From assembly GCA_902760805.1 (NCBI GenBank), contig CACWHY010000002.1, positions 124,001 through 188,000 on the forward strand: 64,000 bases of DNA, read 5' to 3'. The translations under genes and the position numbers were made by a program. Below the pieces are notes generated by a model. It was not told the DNA's origin. It worked only from the letters and a program-made list of their open reading frames with translations, and did no database searches. Numbering within the stretch: the first letter of the stretch is position 1; every line of letters begins with the position of its first letter. Origin of the DNA: Ruminococcus flavefaciens. Lineage in GTDB: Bacteria > Bacillota > Clostridia > Oscillospirales > Ruminococcaceae. Shown here one piece after another: positions 9,690 to 17,477 of the stretch.

Positions 9690-9724
9690 GGAAAAATCTC
9701 CTCTCAGGATGTCTGAAAGGAGAT
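9690..9724 (-). terminator. Terminator of the ECF/cobalamin operon
   Basis: Stem ATCTCCTTTCAG / CTGAGAGGAGAT (9696-9724, one mismatch) followed on the minus strand by TTTTTCCC, immediately after the S-component stop. Confidence 0.85.
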
Positions 9725-10411
9725 CTATATGCCGTATTTGATCTTTATCCTGGCTAGCTTATCGCCGATAGGCTTGCTGAGTATCAGCAAAAACAGCACG
9801 TTTGACACCATATAAGACAGCGTGTATGGAATAGCTGTGATCAGTGCGCTTTGATAGAGCTTCCAGCTAAAGTCCTCCGCATACCAAAGAACAGTCCAGA
9901 TGTCCATGATAAATGAGTAGAGCATTCCTGACAGAGCTCCGTAAAACAGAAGAAAAGGCTTGCTGCGCTTCAATGGCTCCGCCAGAGCCCCGGCAAACAG
10001 TCCGGCAGATCCCCAGGCCAGCATTTGAAAGGCTGTCCAGGGGCCTTGGCCGAAATAAAAATTTGACAGAACAGCAGCCAGAGCTCCCACAAGGAAACCT
10101 GCTTCTCCCCCTAAATACAGGGCTGAAATGATAGTTAGCGCCATTATGGGCTTGAGAAAAGGTATGAATCTTCCGGCAAAGCAAAGAGCTGTCATCACAG
10201 CAACTATCACCATTCGCCGAGTTCCTGTGGAGCGCTTCTCGAAGCCGGCTGCAAAAAGCAAAAGGGCGAAGAATGCGACTGCCATTGAAATTATGATGTG
10301 CTTTTTCTGATCAAATGCAACGGCTCCGGCGATAGTCAGCAGCGGCAATATCACAAATGGAACAGCTACCTTAATTGCGCTGCGCATGGTCTTGCTTCGG
10401 ATCAGTATCAT
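9725..10411 (-). CDS. ECF transporter S component, probable cobalamin specificity
   Basis: The substrate-binding membrane subunit of an energy-coupling-factor importer. The 228-residue protein has about seven hydrophobic segments and the S-component-like ALTIISALYLGGEAGFLVGALAAVLSNFYFGQGPWTAFQM region, split here only for reference; the LGG-x-x-GFLVG-x-x-A stretch is typical of small-Trp-region S proteins. The start ATG at 10411 overlaps the ATPase stop as ATGA and has GGAGG 7 nt upstream. It is the last gene of an operon led by a cobalamin riboswitch, so B12 or a corrinoid precursor is the inferred substrate. The sequence alone does not prove the ligand. Confidence 0.82.
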   Translation of the reverse strand: MILIRSKTMRSAIKVAVPFVILPLLTIAGAVAFDQKKHIIISMAVAFFALLLFAAGFEKRSTGTRRMVIVAVMTALCFAGRFIPFLKPIMALTIISALYLGGEAGFLVGALAAVLSNFYFGQGPWTAFQMLAWGSAGLFAGALAEPLKRSKPFLLFYGALSGMLYSFIMDIWTVLWYAEDFSWKLYQSALITAIPYTLSYMVSNVLFLLILSKPIGDKLARIKIKYGI

Positions 10412-12036
10412 GAGCAGCCTCCGTTCCTTTGGCAAAGCTCCAGAGCGTCATCAATAGTCACAGCGTTTTGGAAGATCCCTCGTGTCATGCGGCTGATAGC
10501 CGTTGTATAGAAGGTGTTTGCCGAAAAAAATGAGTTTGGAGGAGCTATGGAAACTATCCTTCCTGCAAAAAACATTGCACAGCGGTCGGCGCAGGAGGCC
10601 GCAAATTCCACATCATGAGTAACGATACATACCGTCACACCGTTTTCCTTTAATCGCTTTATGACCTCAATGATCTTACTCTTTGAGGCTGGATCCAGGC
10701 CTTTTGTGGGCTCGTCAAGAAGAAGCAGTTTCGGGTGAGCGGCAAGCACCTTCGCCATAGCCGCAAGCTGCTGCTCTCCGCCGGATAGGTCGTATGGGTG
10801 TTTGTCCAGCAGGTGAGTTATATCATATGGCAGCGACTTAGGATCACAGCTTACATCTGAAAGCTCCTCACGAAGCGTGTTCTTCAGAAACACCGTTTGA
10901 ACGTCCTGTGGGAGCATAGCCAGGCAATTCCGGTAAAGGCTGCGATTTTTGTACTCCTTCAATTTCTTGCCGAAGACTTTTATCGTACCGGCATAGGGCT
11001 TGATCAGGCCGGCTGCCGCTGCAAGAGAGGTGGTCTTTCCGGAGCCGTTCCCTCCCAGAATGCAGAAGATCTCGCCTGTATTAACAGAAAAGTCGAGTCC
11101 GCACAATACGTCCGGTGAGCTCTTGCTGTAACGGAAGAAAACACTGTTAAACTCAAGCGCCTTGTCTCCGGCAACAAGAGTTTCAGCTCTGTTCAGCCGC
11201 TGGATCTGGCCGGAAATGGTCTTCTCCAGGAACTCTCGTCCCTCTCTTATTGTCAAAGGGCACTCGCCTTTTCCTCCAAGCTGAGTAAACAATCTCGAAG
11301 CCGCCGGCATTCCGCATAGGATCTCAGGCTTGGACGCAAGACCGGCGATCACCTGCCTGGGTTGTCCGTCTGCGATAAGACTTCCCTTTTCCATTACAAG
11401 GAGCCTGTCGCATATAGGCACGACCTCTTCAAGCCGATGCTCAGCCAGGATGATCGTCAGCCCAAGCTCACTGTTGAGCTTTTTCAGAGCAGAGATGAAT
11501 TCCGAGGCAGCTATCGGGTCTAGCTGCGCAGTGGGCTCGTCCAGGATCAGAAGCTCTGGCTGCATCGCCAAAACCGAAGCCAGGGACAGAAGCTGTTTCT
11601 GGCCGCCTGAAAGCTCCGAGGTCTCCTTTTCGTACCATGGCCCTATACCGAAAAAGCTGGCGACCTCCGCAGTTCTTCGTGAGATCTCCGCCGAGGCTAT
11701 GCCTAGATTTTCCAGTCCGAAGGCCAGCTCATGCCACACTTTATCAGTGACTATCTGCTGCTCAGGCTGCTGCATAACAAATCCAATGCTTGCAGCTGCT
11801 TTTCTATCGTCAAGACTATCTATATCAGTTCCGCAGAAAAACACCTGTCCGTTTTTTTCTCCAAGAGGAGCTATCTCCCTTTTCAAAAGCCTTAGAAGGG
11901 TGGATTTTCCGCTTCCAGTAGCACCGCAAAGAACGTTGAACGTGCCCTTCTCCACCTTAAAAGAGACATTCGAGACCGCAGGTGCATTACACAAGGGATA
12001 GGTGAAGGTCAGATCTCTGACATCAAGCGTTTCCAT
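10408..12036 (-). CDS. ECF transporter fused double ATPase (EcfA1-EcfA2)
   Basis: One 542-residue chain with two ABC ATPase domains, replacing the usual separate EcfA1 and EcfA2. Domain 1 (about 1-230) has Walker A GATGSGKST, signature ELSGGQKQ and Walker B LLILDEPTA; domain 2 (about 300-520) has GGNGSGKTT, DLSGGEQQ and LLLLDEPTK. It powers substrate import with EcfT and the S component. The start at 12036 lies 28 nt inside the end of ecfT, and its stop overlaps the S-component start, so the three subunits are translationally coupled. Fused ATPases are known among ECF modules with dedicated subunits. Confidence 0.93.
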   Translation of the reverse strand: METLDVRDLTFTYPLCNAPAVSNVSFKVEKGTFNVLCGATGSGKSTLLRLLKREIAPLGEKNGQVFFCGTDIDSLDDRKAAASIGFVMQQPEQQIVTDKVWHELAFGLENLGIASAEISRRTAEVASFFGIGPWYEKETSELSGGQKQLLSLASVLAMQPELLILDEPTAQLDPIAASEFISALKKLNSELGLTIILAEHRLEEVVPICDRLLVMEKGSLIADGQPRQVIAGLASKPEILCGMPAASRLFTQLGGKGECPLTIREGREFLEKTISGQIQRLNRAETLVAGDKALEFNSVFFRYSKSSPDVLCGLDFSVNTGEIFCILGGNGSGKTTSLAAAAGLIKPYAGTIKVFGKKLKEYKNRSLYRNCLAMLPQDVQTVFLKNTLREELSDVSCDPKSLPYDITHLLDKHPYDLSGGEQQLAAMAKVLAAHPKLLLLDEPTKGLDPASKSKIIEVIKRLKENGVTVCIVTHDVEFAASCADRCAMFFAGRIVSIAPPNSFFSANTFYTTAISRMTRGIFQNAVTIDDALELCQRNGGCS

Positions 12037-12887
12037 TTCAGCTTCACCCCCGTTTCATTGATCAATGGCAGCATTACTAGGACTGCATATGCGAAGATCC
12101 CAGCTATACCAAGAAAGCCCGGAGAGGCTGCTCTTAGCTGGGGATAAAATTCAAACTTCAGGCGACCTGCTCCTACTGCGGCTGAACATAAGCCAACAAG
12201 TCCAAGCGTCAGGCCAAGGAACAACCAGTCAGCTGCAAAAAAACTTGCTCTCCTCATTTGAGTGCGCCGTCCTGTACCGTATCCCCTGGCAGCCATGCTG
12301 TCTGCTGTAACGATGCCGTTTTCCAAAGCCCAGGTAATCAGTATCGAGAAGATCCTCATTCTGCCACGAATATCATCAATAATGTTGTCCTCGCTGAAAA
12401 GCCCCATAGCCTTTTGGGAATCGGCTATTTTTCTGGACTGCTTACCGAACATGGGTACAGATCTGAGCGCCATCGAAAGCACCAGAGACAGCTTAGGAGA
12501 AAGAGCTCCGGTTATGCAAAGCAGCTTTTCGCTGGTCATGATCTGCGAAAACGAGCGAAAAAAATACAGCACGCCAACGATCATTGCAGCAGAATTTAGT
12601 CCGTAAAGCACAGCCTCCAGTGTGATCGGGTTGTGGTCAAGAACAAACAGCACCGTCTTGCCATTATGGGAAATCAGCGGATTAGCCAGAGCTAAAACTG
12701 TGAATAACAGCCCAAAATACAGATGTGTCCTGCCGTGGGATAGGCCGTTCCTGACTCCAAAAAACAGGACTCCTCCGCAAAGAGCGATCGCCATTAGCGG
12801 AGGATGATTACAAAACATTGCAACGCCTGTGACACTGAAAAACCAAACAGCTATCACTATAGGGTGGTAGTCAGAAAAGCTCCTCAT
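12009..12887 (-). CDS. ecfT: ECF transporter transmembrane subunit EcfT
   Basis: The 292-residue membrane scaffold that couples the ATPases to the S component. It begins with hydrophobic segments (HPIVIAVWFFSVTG), and has the cytoplasmic coupling-helix region with the Ala-Arg-Gly motif in SMAARGYGTGRRT, diagnostic for EcfT. A last transmembrane segment lies near the C-terminus. The start overlaps the stop of the upstream transcobalamin-like gene by 4 nt (ATGA type), and the gene end overlaps the ATPase start. All of this supports a single operon and a dedicated (group I) ECF system rather than a shared module. Confidence 0.92.
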   Translation of the reverse strand: MRSFSDYHPIVIAVWFFSVTGVAMFCNHPPLMAIALCGGVLFFGVRNGLSHGRTHLYFGLLFTVLALANPLISHNGKTVLFVLDHNPITLEAVLYGLNSAAMIVGVLYFFRSFSQIMTSEKLLCITGALSPKLSLVLSMALRSVPMFGKQSRKIADSQKAMGLFSEDNIIDDIRGRMRIFSILITWALENGIVTADSMAARGYGTGRRTQMRRASFFAADWLFLGLTLGLVGLCSAAVGAGRLKFEFYPQLRAASPGFLGIAGIFAYAVLVMLPLINETGVKLKWKRLMSEI

Positions 12888-14824
12888 TCCTCATACACCT
12901 CATTGAGATCACGGCCAAGGTCACAGGTGTAGAGCCATTCTATCTTGTCTCCGGGAGTGAGGGTATAATCACCGCAGCCCCTGGAGGGAGAGATGCCGTT
13001 GACATGGTATACCCAGCCCGACAGGTCACCCAGTGCGTACTCGTAAAGGTAGTTTATTCCTGCAATATAGACCATTCCGTGGGCGTTTCCAGAGCCTCCT
13101 GAATTCTCCACCTGAATGTCGTAGGTCTGAGCGGCTTCCATGAGAATATCAAAAACTGTTTCTCCTTCGGTTATCTCAAAGGTCGTTTCCGGAAGGACAG
13201 TTCCGTCTTCAGGGATATAATCGGCATCCAGCTTTCCTACAGCCGTATCGCACCGAATCTCCAATGTTACCGTTCCAATGGAGTTTTCCTTATGTGTTGC
13301 TTCACCGCTGTAATAGTCATCTGGTGATTTTATATCGGTCAGGAGAACTATTGCGATAGCTGCTGCGACCGCTAGTCCAACGAAAATGAAGTTCTTGTAG
13401 TTCCTCTTGCCAAGTGCAAAGATCAGCAGTGAAAGCAGAAGTCCGGCTCCGACAATGATAATGATGACCTTGGGCTTATAGCTGCCTTTTTTCGTTCCGG
13501 AGATCTTATCCTTGCCTGTAGCCTGAGTCTTAGACACAGTTGTGGTGCCGGAGGAAACCGTTACCGTTGCATCTGAGTTGGCCATTTCAAGGTCGTCTAA
13601 AGTGCTGCCGGAACTGTCAGTCTTTTTTGCACCGGCGGTAGCTGAGGGAGCTGCCGTTGTGAGGGTAGAGATAGTTCCCTTCACAAAGGGCGCTGTAGTA
13701 CGTCCGCCGCTGGGAACGACATGATGAACTCCGGGGCTGATACCCATTTGACTTAGACCACCGTCCTCTGGGATAGTTCCCTCTTGGACCTGCCCATCAC
13801 CTGAGCTGTTTCCGCTGCTGGATTCTGTAGGATCCTCTTTCTGCGCCGGAGTATCCTCTACCGGTCTTGCGTTGTCTAAAACAAGCAAGGGTCCCTGGCC
13901 GTTGAGAGTTCTTCTGTAAGCAATAAGAGAGTAGTAGGACTGAACTGTGGCGGATTCGTTGGATCCTCCACCGATATTATGGCAAAAGCTGCCGTCTGGG
14001 AGCCTGTACATATTGATACCGTCGATAAGTGTACAGCCGTTCTTGATAAAACGGTCGTCCTGCTGACAATCTATGCCCAGTGCAGAAAGTGCCGTCAATA
14101 CCTGTGCGGTGCTCTCAGGGTTAGGCGAGCCGAAGCTCTCATAGCCGCCGTCATCCATTTGTCTTTCGGAAAGAAAATCCAAACCTCGGTCAACAGCAGT
14201 CTGAACATCGCCGCTATAAGGATAATGGGGCGCAAGCGCCTGGATCACCATTGCGGTAACATCTATATCGCCGGATCCTCCGAACAGAGCCCAGCCGCCA
14301 TCATCATACTGCAAGGAAAGCAGCGTTCCCACGCAGGAGCCGGTATCATAATTCTGGCAGGTATAGCCATTATTGAGGACGTGCAGGCCGTAGATCCAGC
14401 TCATTATCCCCTGCTGTCCGATCGAGCTGTCAAGAATGTCGGAAATATACTTGTCCGAGCTTCCTGAGGCAGACAGTGTAAGGGCAAATTTCTCTCTGGA
14501 GGTCGCCGAAGAAACATCATTAGCCGAAAGATAGCTTTTCAGCGCAGCTTCGTATGAAGAAAAAGAGCTGTAGCCGCTCTGACTAAGACCGATAACGTAC
14601 CATTCTGAGCCCTGTCCGGCTGTTCCGGAAAGCTCACCGTCTATCCAATCCTGAACATCCGCAGATCCCGATCCACCTAGCTTATATGCGACTATACCGT
14701 CGATCAGGCTATTGACCTCATCGACGGTATACTCTTGACCTGCTGCTCGCATCGGAAGAAAGCTCAGCGAGATCAGCAGCGTGATGAAAAGGCAAAGCGG
14801 GGCCGCTATTACCTTACTTCTCAT
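12884..14824 (-). CDS. Exported transcobalamin-like protein (alpha/alpha-barrel plus DUF4430 domain)
   Basis: A 646-residue exported protein. Residues 1-29 are a signal peptide. Residues about 30-320 contain repeated helical motifs of the squalene-cyclase/prenyltransferase type (DDGGWALFGGSGDIDVTAMVIQAL, given here by its DDGGWALF and DVTAMVIQAL parts; RQMDDGGYESFG). A Ser/Thr-rich linker follows, then two membrane helices (about 452-471 and 478-496) and a C-terminal DUF4430 domain (515-646) with GWVYHVNG and LTPGDKIEWLYT. An alpha6/alpha6 barrel joined to a DUF4430-like beta domain is the architecture of animal transcobalamin and intrinsic factor. Together with the B12 riboswitch this points to corrinoid capture at the surface. 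Start overlaps the upstream stop by 11 nt. Confidence 0.82.
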   Translation of the reverse strand: MRSKVIAAPLCLFITLLISLSFLPMRAAGQEYTVDEVNSLIDGIVAYKLGGSGSADVQDWIDGELSGTAGQGSEWYVIGLSQSGYSSFSSYEAALKSYLSANDVSSATSREKFALTLSASGSSDKYISDILDSSIGQQGIMSWIYGLHVLNNGYTCQNYDTGSCVGTLLSLQYDDGGWALFGGSGDIDVTAMVIQALAPHYPYSGDVQTAVDRGLDFLSERQMDDGGYESFGSPNPESTAQVLTALSALGIDCQQDDRFIKNGCTLIDGINMYRLPDGSFCHNIGGGSNESATVQSYYSLIAYRRTLNGQGPLLVLDNARPVEDTPAQKEDPTESSSGNSSGDGQVQEGTIPEDGGLSQMGISPGVHHVVPSGGRTTAPFVKGTISTLTTAAPSATAGAKKTDSSGSTLDDLEMANSDATVTVSSGTTTVSKTQATGKDKISGTKKGSYKPKVIIIIVGAGLLLSLLIFALGKRNYKNFIFVGLAVAAAIAIVLLTDIKSPDDYYSGEATHKENSIGTVTLEIRCDTAVGKLDADYIPEDGTVLPETTFEITEGETVFDILMEAAQTYDIQVENSGGSGNAHGMVYIAGINYLYEYALGDLSGWVYHVNGISPSRGCGDYTLTPGDKIEWLYTCDLGRDLNEVYEE

Positions 14825-15749
14825 TTCTCTTTCTCAGTGCAAATGCAGCAAATACGGAAGCGCCCATAAATGCAAATGAAGCAGCTGTGCCGGCATCGCC
14901 TGTCTTGGGAGAGCTGTTTTCTGCATTCTTAGTTGTTTTGGCAGTGGAAGTTACTGTTGTTGTTGTGGTGGTAGTAGTGGTCGTTGCGGCCTCTTCAGTA
15001 GTTGTTTCTGGAGCTTCTGTAGGCGCCTCTGTGGGAGCCTCTGTAGGCTCTTCCTCACCGTTTACCTGAACAACAGCAACAGGAGGAGCAAGACGAATAC
15101 CCTCGGGAGCCTTTGCGCTGATAATGTTCTGACCAGCCTTGTCAAGAGTAACAGATACCTTTCCGTCAGCGTCAGTCTTCAGCTCAGTAGCCTCGCCGTT
15201 TACAGTGATAGAAGCGCCCTCAACGGGAGAAGAAACAGTTGATCCGTCAGAGCCCCATGAGAGCTTGTTCAGTGTAAGCTCAAGAGCCTCACCCTTCTCA
15301 GTCTCAGCGCTCTTCACGTTGAAGTAGCTGTAAGCATCAGAGAAGCCCTGAGTATCAGTGTAAACAAAAGCGTAAACATTGTCGCCGTCCTTAACAGGAT
15401 CTGTAAGTCCCATAGAAGCTACATCGTTCACATAGTAGCCGTAGCTGCCGCCGTTGGTAACGCCCCAGAGCTTGTCCAGGCCCAGTCCCCACTGTCCAAC
15501 TGTGGACTTGTAGCCTGCCTGTGCTCCGCCCTCGTACTTAGCCTCATGAGCCAGGTAAAGAGCATCGTTTATGGTAAGAGCACCGTCGTTGTCGATGTCA
15601 GTGACCTGGATCTGCTCCTGGGTAAGAGCAAGATCTCCGTTAGCGATAGTTACGCTTACAGTAGTTTTGTCCTCAGCATTTGCAGCCATAACACAGGCAG
15701 CAGAGCAGATGAGTGCCATTGCAGAGATAGTGCTGATGAGCTTTTTCAT
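14814..15749 (-). CDS. Secreted surface protein with DUF4430-like domain, EF-hand loop and anchor
   Basis: A 311-residue exported protein, first gene of the riboswitch operon. It has a signal peptide (1-25), then a DUF4430-like domain (about 28-145) with GGSYGYYVNDV and DGDNVYAFVYT, the same pattern as the C-terminal domain of the next gene. A loop DIDNDGALTIND (51-62) with acidic residues at EF-hand/dockerin calcium positions is inserted in it. A small Ig-like region follows, then a Pro-Thr-Glu and Thr-rich stalk and a sorting-like tail: SPKTGD (280-285), a hydrophobic helix and RKRNEK. The tail is a variant LPXTG-type anchor. A corrinoid-binding or relay role is inferred from the riboswitch and neighbours. 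Confidence 0.8.
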   Translation of the reverse strand: MKKLISTISAMALICSAACVMAANAEDKTTVSVTIANGDLALTQEQIQVTDIDNDGALTINDALYLAHEAKYEGGAQAGYKSTVGQWGLGLDKLWGVTNGGSYGYYVNDVASMGLTDPVKDGDNVYAFVYTDTQGFSDAYSYFNVKSAETEKGEALELTLNKLSWGSDGSTVSSPVEGASITVNGEATELKTDADGKVSVTLDKAGQNIISAKAPEGIRLAPPVAVVQVNGEEEPTEAPTEAPTEAPETTTEEAATTTTTTTTTTVTSTAKTTKNAENSSPKTGDAGTAASFAFMGASVFAAFALRKRNEK

Positions 15750-15783
15750 AAAAACCGATCTCCTTTAAAAAATTGATGTGACA

Positions 15784-15821
15784 ACAAAAACACGCTTCCT
15801 CCTTAGGTAAGAAAAAGCGTG
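15784..15821 (-). terminator. Riboswitch expression-platform terminator
   Basis: Minus-strand stem with arms CACGCTT / AAGCGTG (15791-15821) and further internal pairing, followed by GTTTTTG. It lies between the cobalamin aptamer and the first gene of the operon, the position of a ligand-controlled terminator. Another hairpin, ACGTTTTT / AAAAACGT (15859-15882), sits between it and the aptamer. Confidence 0.75.
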
Positions 15822-15887
15822 AGAAAGGGAGCCCTCTTGAGGACTCGGTTTCAGGCTAACGTTTTTCATTGTCCAAAAACGTAAAAA

Positions 15888-15986
15888 CCGCAGATATCCG
15901 GCGAGCGGCCCGACTTGGAAAAGCTCCACACGGTAGTGACTGCTGCGGCGGATTCACACCGCCTTCCCTCAGTTCCGGATACTTTT
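15888..15986 (-). promoter_or_regulatory. Cobalamin riboswitch aptamer
   Basis: On the minus strand the leader contains the B12-box landmarks in order: GAGGGAA, then GGCGGTGTGAATCCGCC (cf. GGTGNGAATCC), a GCAG...CACTACCGTG segment (cf. CNGNCCC-NC-ACTGT), AAGTCGG, and GCCGGATATCTGC (cf. GCCAGGANACCTGC). The closing stem is TATCCGG (15975-15981) with CCGGATA (15895-15901). It is compact, about 100 nt, lacking the long peripheral arm of large AdoCbl riboswitches. It lies between a strong promoter and a terminator hairpin upstream of the ECF operon. A covariance-model search is the decisive check. Confidence 0.85.
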
Positions 15987-16002
15987 TAGATTTTACGATA
16001 TG

Positions 16003-16031
16003 ATTATAGCACATTGATAGTAGGTTGTCAA
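16003..16031 (-). promoter_or_regulatory. Promoter of the riboswitch/ECF operon
   Basis: TTGACA-17 nt-TATAAT on the minus strand, ending about 20 nt upstream of the riboswitch closing stem. Confidence 0.87.
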
Positions 16032-16141: not shown

Positions 16142-16170
16142 TTGATTTTTATTGCCAGCTATAGTATAAT
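16142..16170 (+). promoter_or_regulatory. Promoter of the O-acetylhomoserine sulfhydrylase-type gene
   Basis: TTGATT-17 nt-TATAAT, 38 nt upstream of the start codon at 16209. Confidence 0.8.
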
Positions 16171-16208
16171 TGTATTACAGTAAATTTTTGACAAAGGAGA
16201 AATATAAC

Positions 16209-17477
16209 ATGAAGCTTGAAACAAAATGCCTCCATGCAGGCTATACACCTAAGAACACAGAGCCCAGAGTAGTGCCTATCGTTCAGAGCACTACTTACGT
16301 TTACGACTCAACAGACGATGTTGCTGCCGTTTTTGACGATCCCACCAAGAGCCTTATCTACTCAAGATTTGAAAATCCCACTGTTATGGCTGTCGAAGAC
16401 AAGATCGCAGCTCTTGAGGGAGGTATCGGTGCAATGTGTACCTCCAGCGGACAGGCTGCTTCTCTTTGCTCTATCCTGAACATCTGCCAGGCTGGAGACA
16501 GCATCATTTCCACTACAACTATCTACGGAGGAACTATCAATCTCTTCGCAGTTACCTTCAAAAAGCTGGGCATCGAAACTATCTTTGTAGATCCTGATGC
16601 TTCTGAGGATGAGATCCGTGCAGCATTTAAGCCCAACACCAAGGCAGTTTTCGGCGAGACTATCGCTAACCCTGCACTGACAGTATTCGACATCGAAAAA
16701 TTCGCTAAGATCGCACACGAGAACAACGTTCCTCTTATCGTGGACAACACCTTCCCCACACCTATCCTTTGCCGTCCTATCGAGCACGGCGCAGACATCG
16801 TTGTCCACTCCACATCTAAGTACATGGACGGCCATGCTGTTCAGGTGGGCGGTGTGATCGTAGATGCAGGTACTTTCGACTGGGCAAACGGTAAGTTCCC
16901 TGAGTTCACAGAGCCTGATGAGAGCTATCACGGCACTATCTACACAAAGGCATACGGTAAGGCTGCATATATCGTTAAGGCAAGAATGCAGCTCATGAGA
17001 GATTTCGGCTGCTATCCTTCAGCACAGTCTGCATTCTATCTCAACCTTGGCCTGGAGACTCTTGCTGTTAGAATGAAGCAGTATTGCGAGAATGCTAAGA
17101 TCATTTCTGAGTTCCTTGAGGCTGATCCTCATGTTGAGTCAGTAAACTACCCTGGCCTGGCAAGCAGTCCTTACCACGAGCTTGCTCAGAAGTACCTTCC
17201 CAACGGATGCAGCGGAGTTATCTCATTCGTTATCAAGGGCGGCAGAAGCACTGCTGTCAAGTTCATGGATGCTCTGAAGCTGGCATCAAATGAGGTACAC
17301 GTTGCAGATATTAGAACTTGTGTGCTTCACCCTGCAAGCGCAACACATCGTCAGCTCACAGATGAGCAGCTTGTTGCAGCAGGTATCAACGGCGGAATGA
17401 TCCGCTTCTCTGTTGGCCTTGAGAATATCGACGACATTCTCGACGATCTGAAGCAGGCATTTGCAGCTATCGACTAA
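16209..17477 (+). CDS. metY: O-acetylhomoserine sulfhydrylase / Cys-Met metabolism PLP enzyme
   Basis: A PLP-dependent trans-sulfuration enzyme of 422 residues. Family marks are KCLHAGY at the N-terminus, YSRFENPTV, SSGQAA (phosphate-binding), DNTFPTP (Asp to the pyridine nitrogen) and the PLP lysine in VVHSTSKYMDGH. The length above 400 and the GGVIVDAGTFDW region favour MetY, which makes homocysteine from O-acetylhomoserine and sulfide; methionine gamma-lyase is the closest alternative. The ATG at 16209 is chosen over an upstream in-frame ATG (16170) because AAAGGAG lies 9 nt before it and the family starts there. It faces away from the B12 operon, and B12 is a methionine-synthase cofactor, a plausible metabolic link. 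Confidence 0.87.
   Translation: MKLETKCLHAGYTPKNTEPRVVPIVQSTTYVYDSTDDVAAVFDDPTKSLIYSRFENPTVMAVEDKIAALEGGIGAMCTSSGQAASLCSILNICQAGDSIISTTTIYGGTINLFAVTFKKLGIETIFVDPDASEDEIRAAFKPNTKAVFGETIANPALTVFDIEKFAKIAHENNVPLIVDNTFPTPILCRPIEHGADIVVHSTSKYMDGHAVQVGGVIVDAGTFDWANGKFPEFTEPDESYHGTIYTKAYGKAAYIVKARMQLMRDFGCYPSAQSAFYLNLGLETLAVRMKQYCENAKIISEFLEADPHVESVNYPGLASSPYHELAQKYLPNGCSGVISFVIKGGRSTAVKFMDALKLASNEVHVADIRTCVLHPASATHRQLTDEQLVAAGINGGMIRFSVGLENIDDILDDLKQAFAAID

Follow-up and report, generated by a model that had tools for sequence, protein, structure and literature searches.

What is the function of an operon in which a protein resembling, in its predicted fold, the vitamin B12 carriers of animals is encoded beside a membrane importer and behind a putative cobalamin riboswitch? 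This question is raised by a locus of Ruminococcus flavefaciens, located on contig CACWHY010000002.1 of assembly GCA_902760805.1. The window analysed here is the whole stretch of 64,000 nucleotides covering positions 124,001 to 188,000 of that contig. The operon lies on its minus strand and is composed of a promoter, a cobalamin-type riboswitch and a terminator, followed by five genes, each overlapping the next. These encode two putative surface proteins, termed g1 and g2, and the three parts of an energy-coupling factor (ECF) importer:

14814-15749, minus strand: g1, 311 residues, probable secreted surface protein
12884-14824, minus strand: g2, 646 residues, predicted membrane-tethered transcobalamin-like protein
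12009-12887, minus strand: EcfT (CbiQ family), transmembrane coupling subunit (PF02361, 37.6 bits, cut-off 25)
10408-12036, minus strand: EcfAA, two ECF ATPase domains fused in one chain (TIGR04520, 338 bits, cut-off 315; two ABC_tran stretches)
9725-10411, minus strand: S component, CbrT kind (best PDB match of its profile 6fnp_A, E 5.9e-13)

The five-gene riboswitch-linked operon is confirmed as real. A preliminary description of the window, made from the sequence alone, had announced five coupled genes behind a B12-type RNA and a terminator; the overlapping minus-strand genes are found as announced, and the operon is conserved on one strand in 63 of 80 relatives (same-strand tblastn). Judged from sequence and from predicted structure, the operon very probably serves the capture and import of corrinoids (vitamin B12-type compounds), with g1 and g2 acting outside the cell and the CbrT-like S component importing together with EcfT-EcfAA. 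As a whole, the preliminary interpretation is partly supported.

The transcobalamin-like protein g2

In the predicted architecture of g2, three parts are distinguished:

13904-14725, minus strand: α/α toroid, residues 34-307 (structure model; SQHop_cyclase_C at 23.4 bits, below the cut-off of 26.1; Foldseek)
13340-13480, minus strand: membrane hairpin, hydrophobic helices 449-470 and 476-495 (structure model; alignment of 75 sequences)
12905-13276, minus strand: SLBB/DUF4430 β-grasp domain, residues about 517-640 (PF14478, 53.4 bits, cut-off 23.8)

The combination of an α/α barrel with DUF4430, read earlier from the sequence, is thus recovered, the former as the toroid of the model and the latter as a clear Pfam match. 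This is the only DUF4430 match of the genome; the domain is common, since 77 of 249 genomes sampled from the phylum contain it. The AlphaFold2 model was built with 75 sequences, namely the window protein and 74 of 77 relatives available. It has a predicted local distance difference test score (pLDDT) of 82.6 and starts with an N-terminal helix (residues 3-21), and residues 344-442 have a pLDDT below 50. When this model was searched with Foldseek against 350,542 PDB chains, ranks 1 to 11 were all occupied by transcobalamin, haptocorrin or intrinsic factor (E 7.1e-6 to 1.1e-4), as expected from the transcobalamin-like architecture proposed beforehand. The isolated β domain of human transcobalamin (5no0) is found at rank 48 with a TMt of 0.76. 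A structure search of the viral structure library returned no match at E ≤ 0.001. At the level of the model, a transcobalamin-like two-domain fold of g2, toroid plus β-grasp, is therefore supported.

In each of the 75 aligned g2 proteins, the stretch between the domains contains two hydrophobic segments, no more and no fewer, connected by a loop with lysine or arginine; a further hydrophobic segment is N-terminal. According to the positive-inside rule, positively charged loops stay on the inner side of the membrane. The two segments and their positive loop therefore indicate that both binding domains of g2 should face outward, beside the importer. The protein of the window is best seen as a fusion of parts, because toroid and DUF4430 occur apart in three loci that are more distant: in L055, L059 and L061 (loci are numbered with the prefix L), the gene immediately preceding ecfT encodes DUF4430/SLBB as a protein of its own, with a hydrophobic segment at its N-terminus, and L055 additionally has the toroid on a protein of its own, encoded ahead of the SLBB protein.

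The ECF importer

The assignment of the three downstream genes to EcfT, a fused EcfA and an S component has held: the families exceed their cut-offs, and the best PDB relative of the S component is CbrT. No NCBIfam match was obtained for EcfT at E ≤ 1. In Pfam, the S component matches ECF-ribofla_trS (40.6 bits, cut-off 26.7) and ECF_trnsprt (32.5 bits, cut-off 30.7). Its profile, built from 35 of the 67 sequences available, retrieves from the PDB, besides 6fnp_A, a single other chain at E ≤ 0.1, 4hzu_S (E 0.0074). Entry 6FNP is the structure of ECF-CbrT, which transports cobalamin and cobinamide, according to the parts of Santos et al. (PMC5997447) used here. The sequence comparison thus supports a predicted S component of B12 (CbrT) type within an ECF module. 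The ATG at 10411 is a more likely start of its gene than the listed TTG at 10435, because exactly 228 residues are found in 35 of 68 relatives.

Promoter, riboswitch and terminator

Upstream of g1, the control region comprises three predicted elements:

16003-16031, minus strand: sigma-70-type promoter, TTGACA-17-TATAAT (12 of 12 consensus positions matched; function predicted from the consensus)
15858-15994, minus strand: putative cobalamin (AdoCbl-type) riboswitch aptamer, including the conserved last hairpin (RF01482, 39.5 bits; covariation in 34 leaders)
15781-15821, minus strand: intrinsic terminator, a 13-pair stem followed by TTTTTGTTGT, likely expression platform (scan for hairpins with T-runs)

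The promoter is the sole one to match at all 12 positions among 16 sites found, with 5.8 sites expected from shuffles. No Rfam match reaches the curated (gathering) cut-off anywhere in the window. The AdoCbl match at 15994-15858 (cut-off 50, E 9.1e-6 for 601 bases searched) is the only RF01482 match at E ≤ 0.001 in the 2.73 Mb genome (E 9.8e-6). The B12-type RNA of the preliminary description therefore stands as far as the RF01482 match and the covariation are concerned, with a window score that stays under the family cut-off. The terminator hairpin with its T-run (15821-15791) lies outside 15888-15986, the stretch that had been named for a covariance search. Its 13-pair stem is the longest of the eight found by the scan; the number of terminators is not above chance, since 6.2 were expected. 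Folded alone, the leader is a little more stable than shuffled sequences (z-score -2.33), 3 of 200 shuffles being equally or more stable.

Covariation was assessed over 19 pairs in all 34 aligned compact leaders, the window included, against 500 shuffles. With a structure drawn by hand from the same kind of alignment, which favours that structure, 96.4% of the cells pair (shuffle mean 88.6%) and 13 of the 19 pairs change on both sides, as compared to a shuffle mean of 6.5, none of the 500 shuffles being as high. Such both-side changes occur in 60 cells (shuffle mean 15.4), and when the partners are shifted by 1 to 3 columns, no more than 10 pairs with both-side changes are left. The number of further pair types is unremarkable, 22 against a shuffle mean of 20.0, a value reached by 61 of the 500 shuffles. 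A hairpin before a T-rich stretch is present in 33 of the 34 leaders, L102 lacking it, as judged with a loose script and no shuffled control. Control by a predicted cobalamin riboswitch is thus supported by sequence and structure.

To note, for the compact switch (15853-15989 in the window, and the leaders of L065-L106), 4 of the 12 close-relative loci score at or above the AdoCbl-II cut-off, and the best family in the window is AdoCbl. The AdoCbl-II cut-off is also reached in L052 and L144. The compact switch of this clade is an intermediate form often missed by the Rfam cut-offs. At the other end of the operon, an inverted repeat, GATCTCC...GGAGAT, with a T-run was noticed by eye directly after the S component (9696-9724, minus strand); it is a possible operon terminator and is not listed by the terminator scan of the window.

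The surface protein g1

From its N- to its C-terminus, g1 displays a signal-peptide-like start, an immunoglobulin-like (Ig-like) region, a threonine-rich linker and an SPKTG-type tail. Two short motifs have been located:

15564-15599, minus strand: EF-hand/dockerin-type loop DxDxDGxLTIND, residues 51-62 (kept in an alignment of 59 sequences)
14898-14912, minus strand: sortase-type anchor motif SPKTG, residues 280-284 (sequence motif)

The alignment comprises the window protein and 58 of 69 relatives. An xPxTG motif is present within the last 60 residues of 46 of the 59 sequences, the NCBIfam model Rumino_NPXTG matches g1 at 20.5 bits, below its cut-off of 23.5, and six sortase-family matches are encoded in the genome. 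The loop is well conserved: among the 59 sequences, D51 and D55 are kept in all, D53 in 55 (asparagine in 4), G56 in 51, T59 in 57 and D62 in 56 (glutamate in 3).

Of the earlier view of g1, a surface protein with a DUF4430-like domain, the tail of the surface protein is retained, and the DUF4430 claim finds no Pfam match. The family is not among the 25 Pfam families listed for the 59 members, two of which match Dockerin_1 and one choline-binding repeats. Aligned with hhalign to the DUF4430 domain, the g1 domain gives P 0.059, and a control domain does at least as well (0.025); for the whole g1 and g2 profiles, the sole alignment is that of the signal peptides. A structure model of g1 from its single sequence had a pLDDT of 37 and was discarded. 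By eye, a DUF4430-like pattern may be recognized in 'GGSYGYYVN' and 'DGDNVYAFVY'. Relatives give indirect, positional support: the operons of L048 (same genus) and L051 (same order) begin with a gene that encodes true DUF4430 domains followed by the Ig-like domain of g1, the latter matched with independent E-values of 8.2e-4 and 7.4e-7, respectively, among 3798 open reading frames. The DUF4430 part of these two proteins gives no significant alignment with g1. On the strength of these relatives, an SLBB/DUF4430 identity of the N-terminal region of g1 is likely.

Dockerin-like repeats follow the Ig-like domain, as detected by profile in L051 and by eye in L048. These two genes (L048:8290-9294 and L051:2672-4348) hint at a cohesin-dockerin attachment of B12-binding proteins in replacement of the sortase anchor.

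Conservation among relatives

Relatives were fetched through g2: among 409 pattern matches, 401 were confirmed and the best 80 were kept. g2 is hence present in all 80 loci by construction. The nearest named relative, L065 from a roe deer Ruminococcus, is 80% identical over g2, and a g2 match is found in 27 of 60 neighbourhood genomes, the window's own included. By same-strand tblastn, ecfT and the S component are each found in 73 loci, ecfAA in 72 and g1 in 70; when full open reading frames are mapped, all five genes are present in 56 of the 80. Some part is missing by tblastn in 17 loci, several of which (e.g. L066, L118, L120, L135) are cut by contig ends. One locus, L143, is rearranged, its S component being located upstream on the opposite strand (L143:5528-6211, minus strand).

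The leaders were surveyed in 69 loci with a mapped g1, 66 of which have enough upstream sequence. A cobalamin switch was detected by motif or Rfam in 57 of the 66, or 58 when counting L138, whose sub-cut-off Rfam match of 23.7 bits has a position that fits its leader. The box scan retrieved a compact (class II-like) box in 33 leaders and a class I B12 box in 12. The box scan left 21 leaders without a hit, and for 12 of these a switch was detected otherwise: the box is located further upstream in L086, L124 is recognized by motif only, and an Rfam switch is present in L114, L118, L119, L122, L123, L128, L131, L132, L133 and L144. In all of this last series except L144, it is RF00174 or AdoCbl that stands before the operon genes. 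In L131, where the genes are ordered ecfT-ecfAA-S-g1-g2, the switch accordingly stands ahead of ecfT. When both strands are counted, the same 66 loci contain 13 more boxes beyond the leaders (all 80 loci amount to 1.16 Mb); three of them (L114, L119, L131) fall in Rfam cobalamin matches further upstream, and the one of L086 lies 110 bases ahead of a longer g1 reading frame. Different loci thus have switches of different Rfam families, AdoCbl-II, AdoCbl and Cobalamin.

A reduced arrangement is observed in five loci (L109-L112 and L125), in which the S component directly follows g2 and no match to g1, ecfT or ecfAA is found in the locus on either strand. This adjacency without ecfT and ecfAA suggests that g2 and S are a working pair. 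The pair is possibly a minimal unit borrowing an ECF module.

Cobalamin metabolism elsewhere in the genome

The genome of the window encodes a second group of B12-related genes:

L147 (G000:C14:8000-27999) and L148 (G000:C14:28000-40000), window's own genome: B12-synthesis cluster and Btu-like importer

The best NCBIfam families of the cluster are CbiD, CbiF, CbiG, CbiH, CbiJ, CbiE-CbiT and CobB/CbiA, together with CobT, CobU, CobS, CbiB, CobD, CobQ/CbiP and CbiC; several matches (e.g. CbiG, CobU, CobD, CbiC) are below the cut-off of their own model. The cluster is followed by a class I cobalamin switch (107.1 bits) and then by genes for a CbiK-like fusion, an unmatched protein, a BtuF-like protein of the Peripla_BP_2 family, and proteins resembling BtuC and BtuD. 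The last two are below the cut-offs of their models, and the BtuC-like one is cut by the end of the stretch examined. The unmatched protein (L147:17488-18423), 311 residues long, has no Pfam or NCBIfam family at the thresholds used. A MetH-like protein with B12-binding domains is also encoded in the genome and provides a use for B12.

The picture of an auxotroph scavenging B12 is too simple for this strain, because its genome encodes much of B12 synthesis plus a Btu-like importer. For the same reason, other corrinoids may be the substrate. The role of the importer may thus be one of thrift, or the uptake of other corrinoids.

Next to the operon in the window, the divergently oriented gene (16170-17477, plus strand) encodes a pyridoxal phosphate-dependent enzyme of Cys/Met metabolism. 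By eye it resembles O-acetylhomoserine sulfhydrylase, and such an enzyme would supply the substrate of a B12-dependent methionine synthase.

Proposed mechanism and alternative explanations

At low intracellular cobalamin, the riboswitch would let RNA polymerase pass the terminator, and the five genes would be made, as its class and anatomy suggest. Exported and anchored to the wall, g1 would probably bind corrinoid at the cell surface, its fold possibly held by calcium. g2 would be retained in the membrane by its two-helix hairpin, with the toroid and the SLBB domain outside and connected through the hairpin and a flexible linker. These two domains, given their predicted fold, may close on a corrinoid as they do in transcobalamin. 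The ligand would then be released to the adjacent CbrT-like S component, the direct handover from g2 to S being the least certain step. EcfT and the fused EcfAA, judging from their families, would finally drive the ligand into the cytoplasm.

A more specific version of this proposal, in which g2 is a dedicated extracellular subunit of the ECF importer, is put forward tentatively: a transcobalamin-like clamp whose hairpin would dock on S or EcfT and which would hand over the corrinoid. To our knowledge, ECF systems are held to catch their substrate with the membrane S component alone. If g2 does deliver to an ECF S component, this would change the view of how ECF importers catch scarce substrates.

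Several observations weigh against corrinoid capture and import. The carriers are matched by g2 with modest template modelling scores (TM-scores of 0.30-0.38 by query) and root-mean-square deviations of 9 to 15 Å, which indicates that the arrangement of the domains in the model is unlike that of the carriers. No eukaryotic cobalamin-binding Pfam family is found for g2 at E ≤ 1, and its profile retrieves no transcobalamin chain from the PDB (E ≤ 1, 20 hits). For g1, PF14478 is matched neither in the window protein nor in ten g1 fragments. The S component is named riboflavin-type by Pfam, and its sole NCBIfam match, to a folate-type family, is weak (16 bits, cut-off 60). On the RNA side, in 8 of the 12 close-relative loci no cobalamin family of Rfam is matched at its curated cut-off, 8 of the 66 leaders (L090, L091, L097, L103, L108, L116, L142, L143) have no switch by the scans used, and no Rfam cobalamin switch is found in the five loci with the g2-S pair. 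Finally, the B12-synthesis cluster and the Btu-like importer leave the need for the importer of this operon not obvious.

This last point leads to the question of the ligand. That incomplete corrinoids or foreign cobamides (e.g. cobinamide), acquired for remodelling, are the main ligand in place of vitamin B12 is rather unlikely. The genome has cobinamide-finishing enzymes (CobU-, CobS-, CobT-, CbiB- and CobD-like), its other, Btu-like importer stands behind a class I switch of its own, and ECF-CbrT is reported to carry cobalamin and cobinamide alike in the parts of PMC5997447 drawn on here. However, the sequence does not distinguish between these ligands, and a cobalamin switch would fit whichever corrinoid is imported.

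It is improbable that S and the ECF module import corrinoid alone, with g1 and g2 as attachment or polysaccharide-binding proteins that merely share the operon. The anchor motif and the dockerin-type loop of g1, as well as the Dockerin_1 matches in 2 and the choline-binding repeats in 1 of its 59 aligned sequences, would suit such a function; glycoside-related toroids appear lower in the Foldseek list of g2, and ECF-CbrT of Lactobacillus was shown to be functional by itself (PMC5997447, same parts). Conversely, it is the B12 carriers that rank first for g2, this protein remains beside S where ecfT and ecfAA are absent, and true DUF4430 domains are present in the first gene of two relatives.

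Import of cobalt or another metal for B12 synthesis, with the surface proteins serving that purpose, is very improbable and is rejected as the leading explanation: EcfT is a CbiQ-family protein, cobalamin riboswitches often control cobalt ECF systems and the genome, seemingly able to make B12, would need cobalt, but the S component resembles CbrT and vitamin-type Pfam families, no CbiM-type family is listed, and we know of no role of transcobalamin-like folds in binding metal ions.

Comparison with known systems

Capture and import of corrinoids by surface proteins of this kind has a precedent in the literature. In the parts used here, Burroughs et al. (2007; PMC1796856) describe SLBB proteins of bacteria that carry toroids and anchors and are encoded with CbiO/CbiQ and a second, extracellular SLBB protein; for these they predicted B12 scavenging and a transfer to animals. 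The operon of the window shares with these systems the fusion of toroid and SLBB, the signal peptides, the Gram-positive anchors and the CbiQ/CbiO neighbours. The core idea is therefore not new, as these authors already predicted such B12-scavenging surface proteins (PMC1796856). They state, in the same parts, that bacteria with such systems usually lack key enzymes of B12 synthesis (PMC1796856); unlike them, the genome of the window has many. The first part of section 7 of that paper names neither an S component nor a membrane hairpin between the domains, and the word riboswitch is absent from its main text. In the open literature, with subscription papers and preprints outside the search, no experimental test of the predicted system was found, and the bacterial system is described only in Burroughs et al. 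(2007).

The present analysis adds to that prediction the switch, an S component of CbrT type, the hairpin of g2 in the membrane, the EF-type loop and the occurrence of the operon in a genome that also has a large B12-synthesis cluster. The operon ties the structural prediction of 2007 to a named kind of S component, an RNA switch and a membrane topology, and it is directly testable. According to the part of PMC6593275 used here, it is an open problem to identify the B12 transporters of many gut genomes.

Among transporters, the ECF-CbrT of Lactobacillus delbrueckii (6FNP) has the same kind of S component and an ECF module; the operon of the window differs in that it encodes itself the ECF module, with a fused ATPase, plus extracellular proteins. 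The toroid of g2 also gives a weak match to an SCO2321-family membrane protein (NF053823, 29 bits, E 4.7e-7, family cut-off 300 bits). BtuG and BtuB of Bacteroides have different folds and belong to the outer membrane. Their likeness to the operon of the window, a proposed capture of corrinoids at the surface ahead of a transporter, is an analogy only.

The closest structural resemblance is to transcobalamin, haptocorrin and intrinsic factor of animals, which share with the g2 model the fold of α/α toroid plus β-grasp. As compared to these carriers, g2 is bacterial, has a predicted membrane hairpin between its domains, displays no sequence match and is tied to an importer, not to a receptor. 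If g2 delivers its ligand to the S component of an ECF importer, the operon would provide a bacterial counterpart of intrinsic factor and transcobalamin. And if g2 were the capture subunit of an ECF importer, it would represent a living relative of the ancestor of the animal B12 carriers, in an ECF transporter with its own capture protein.

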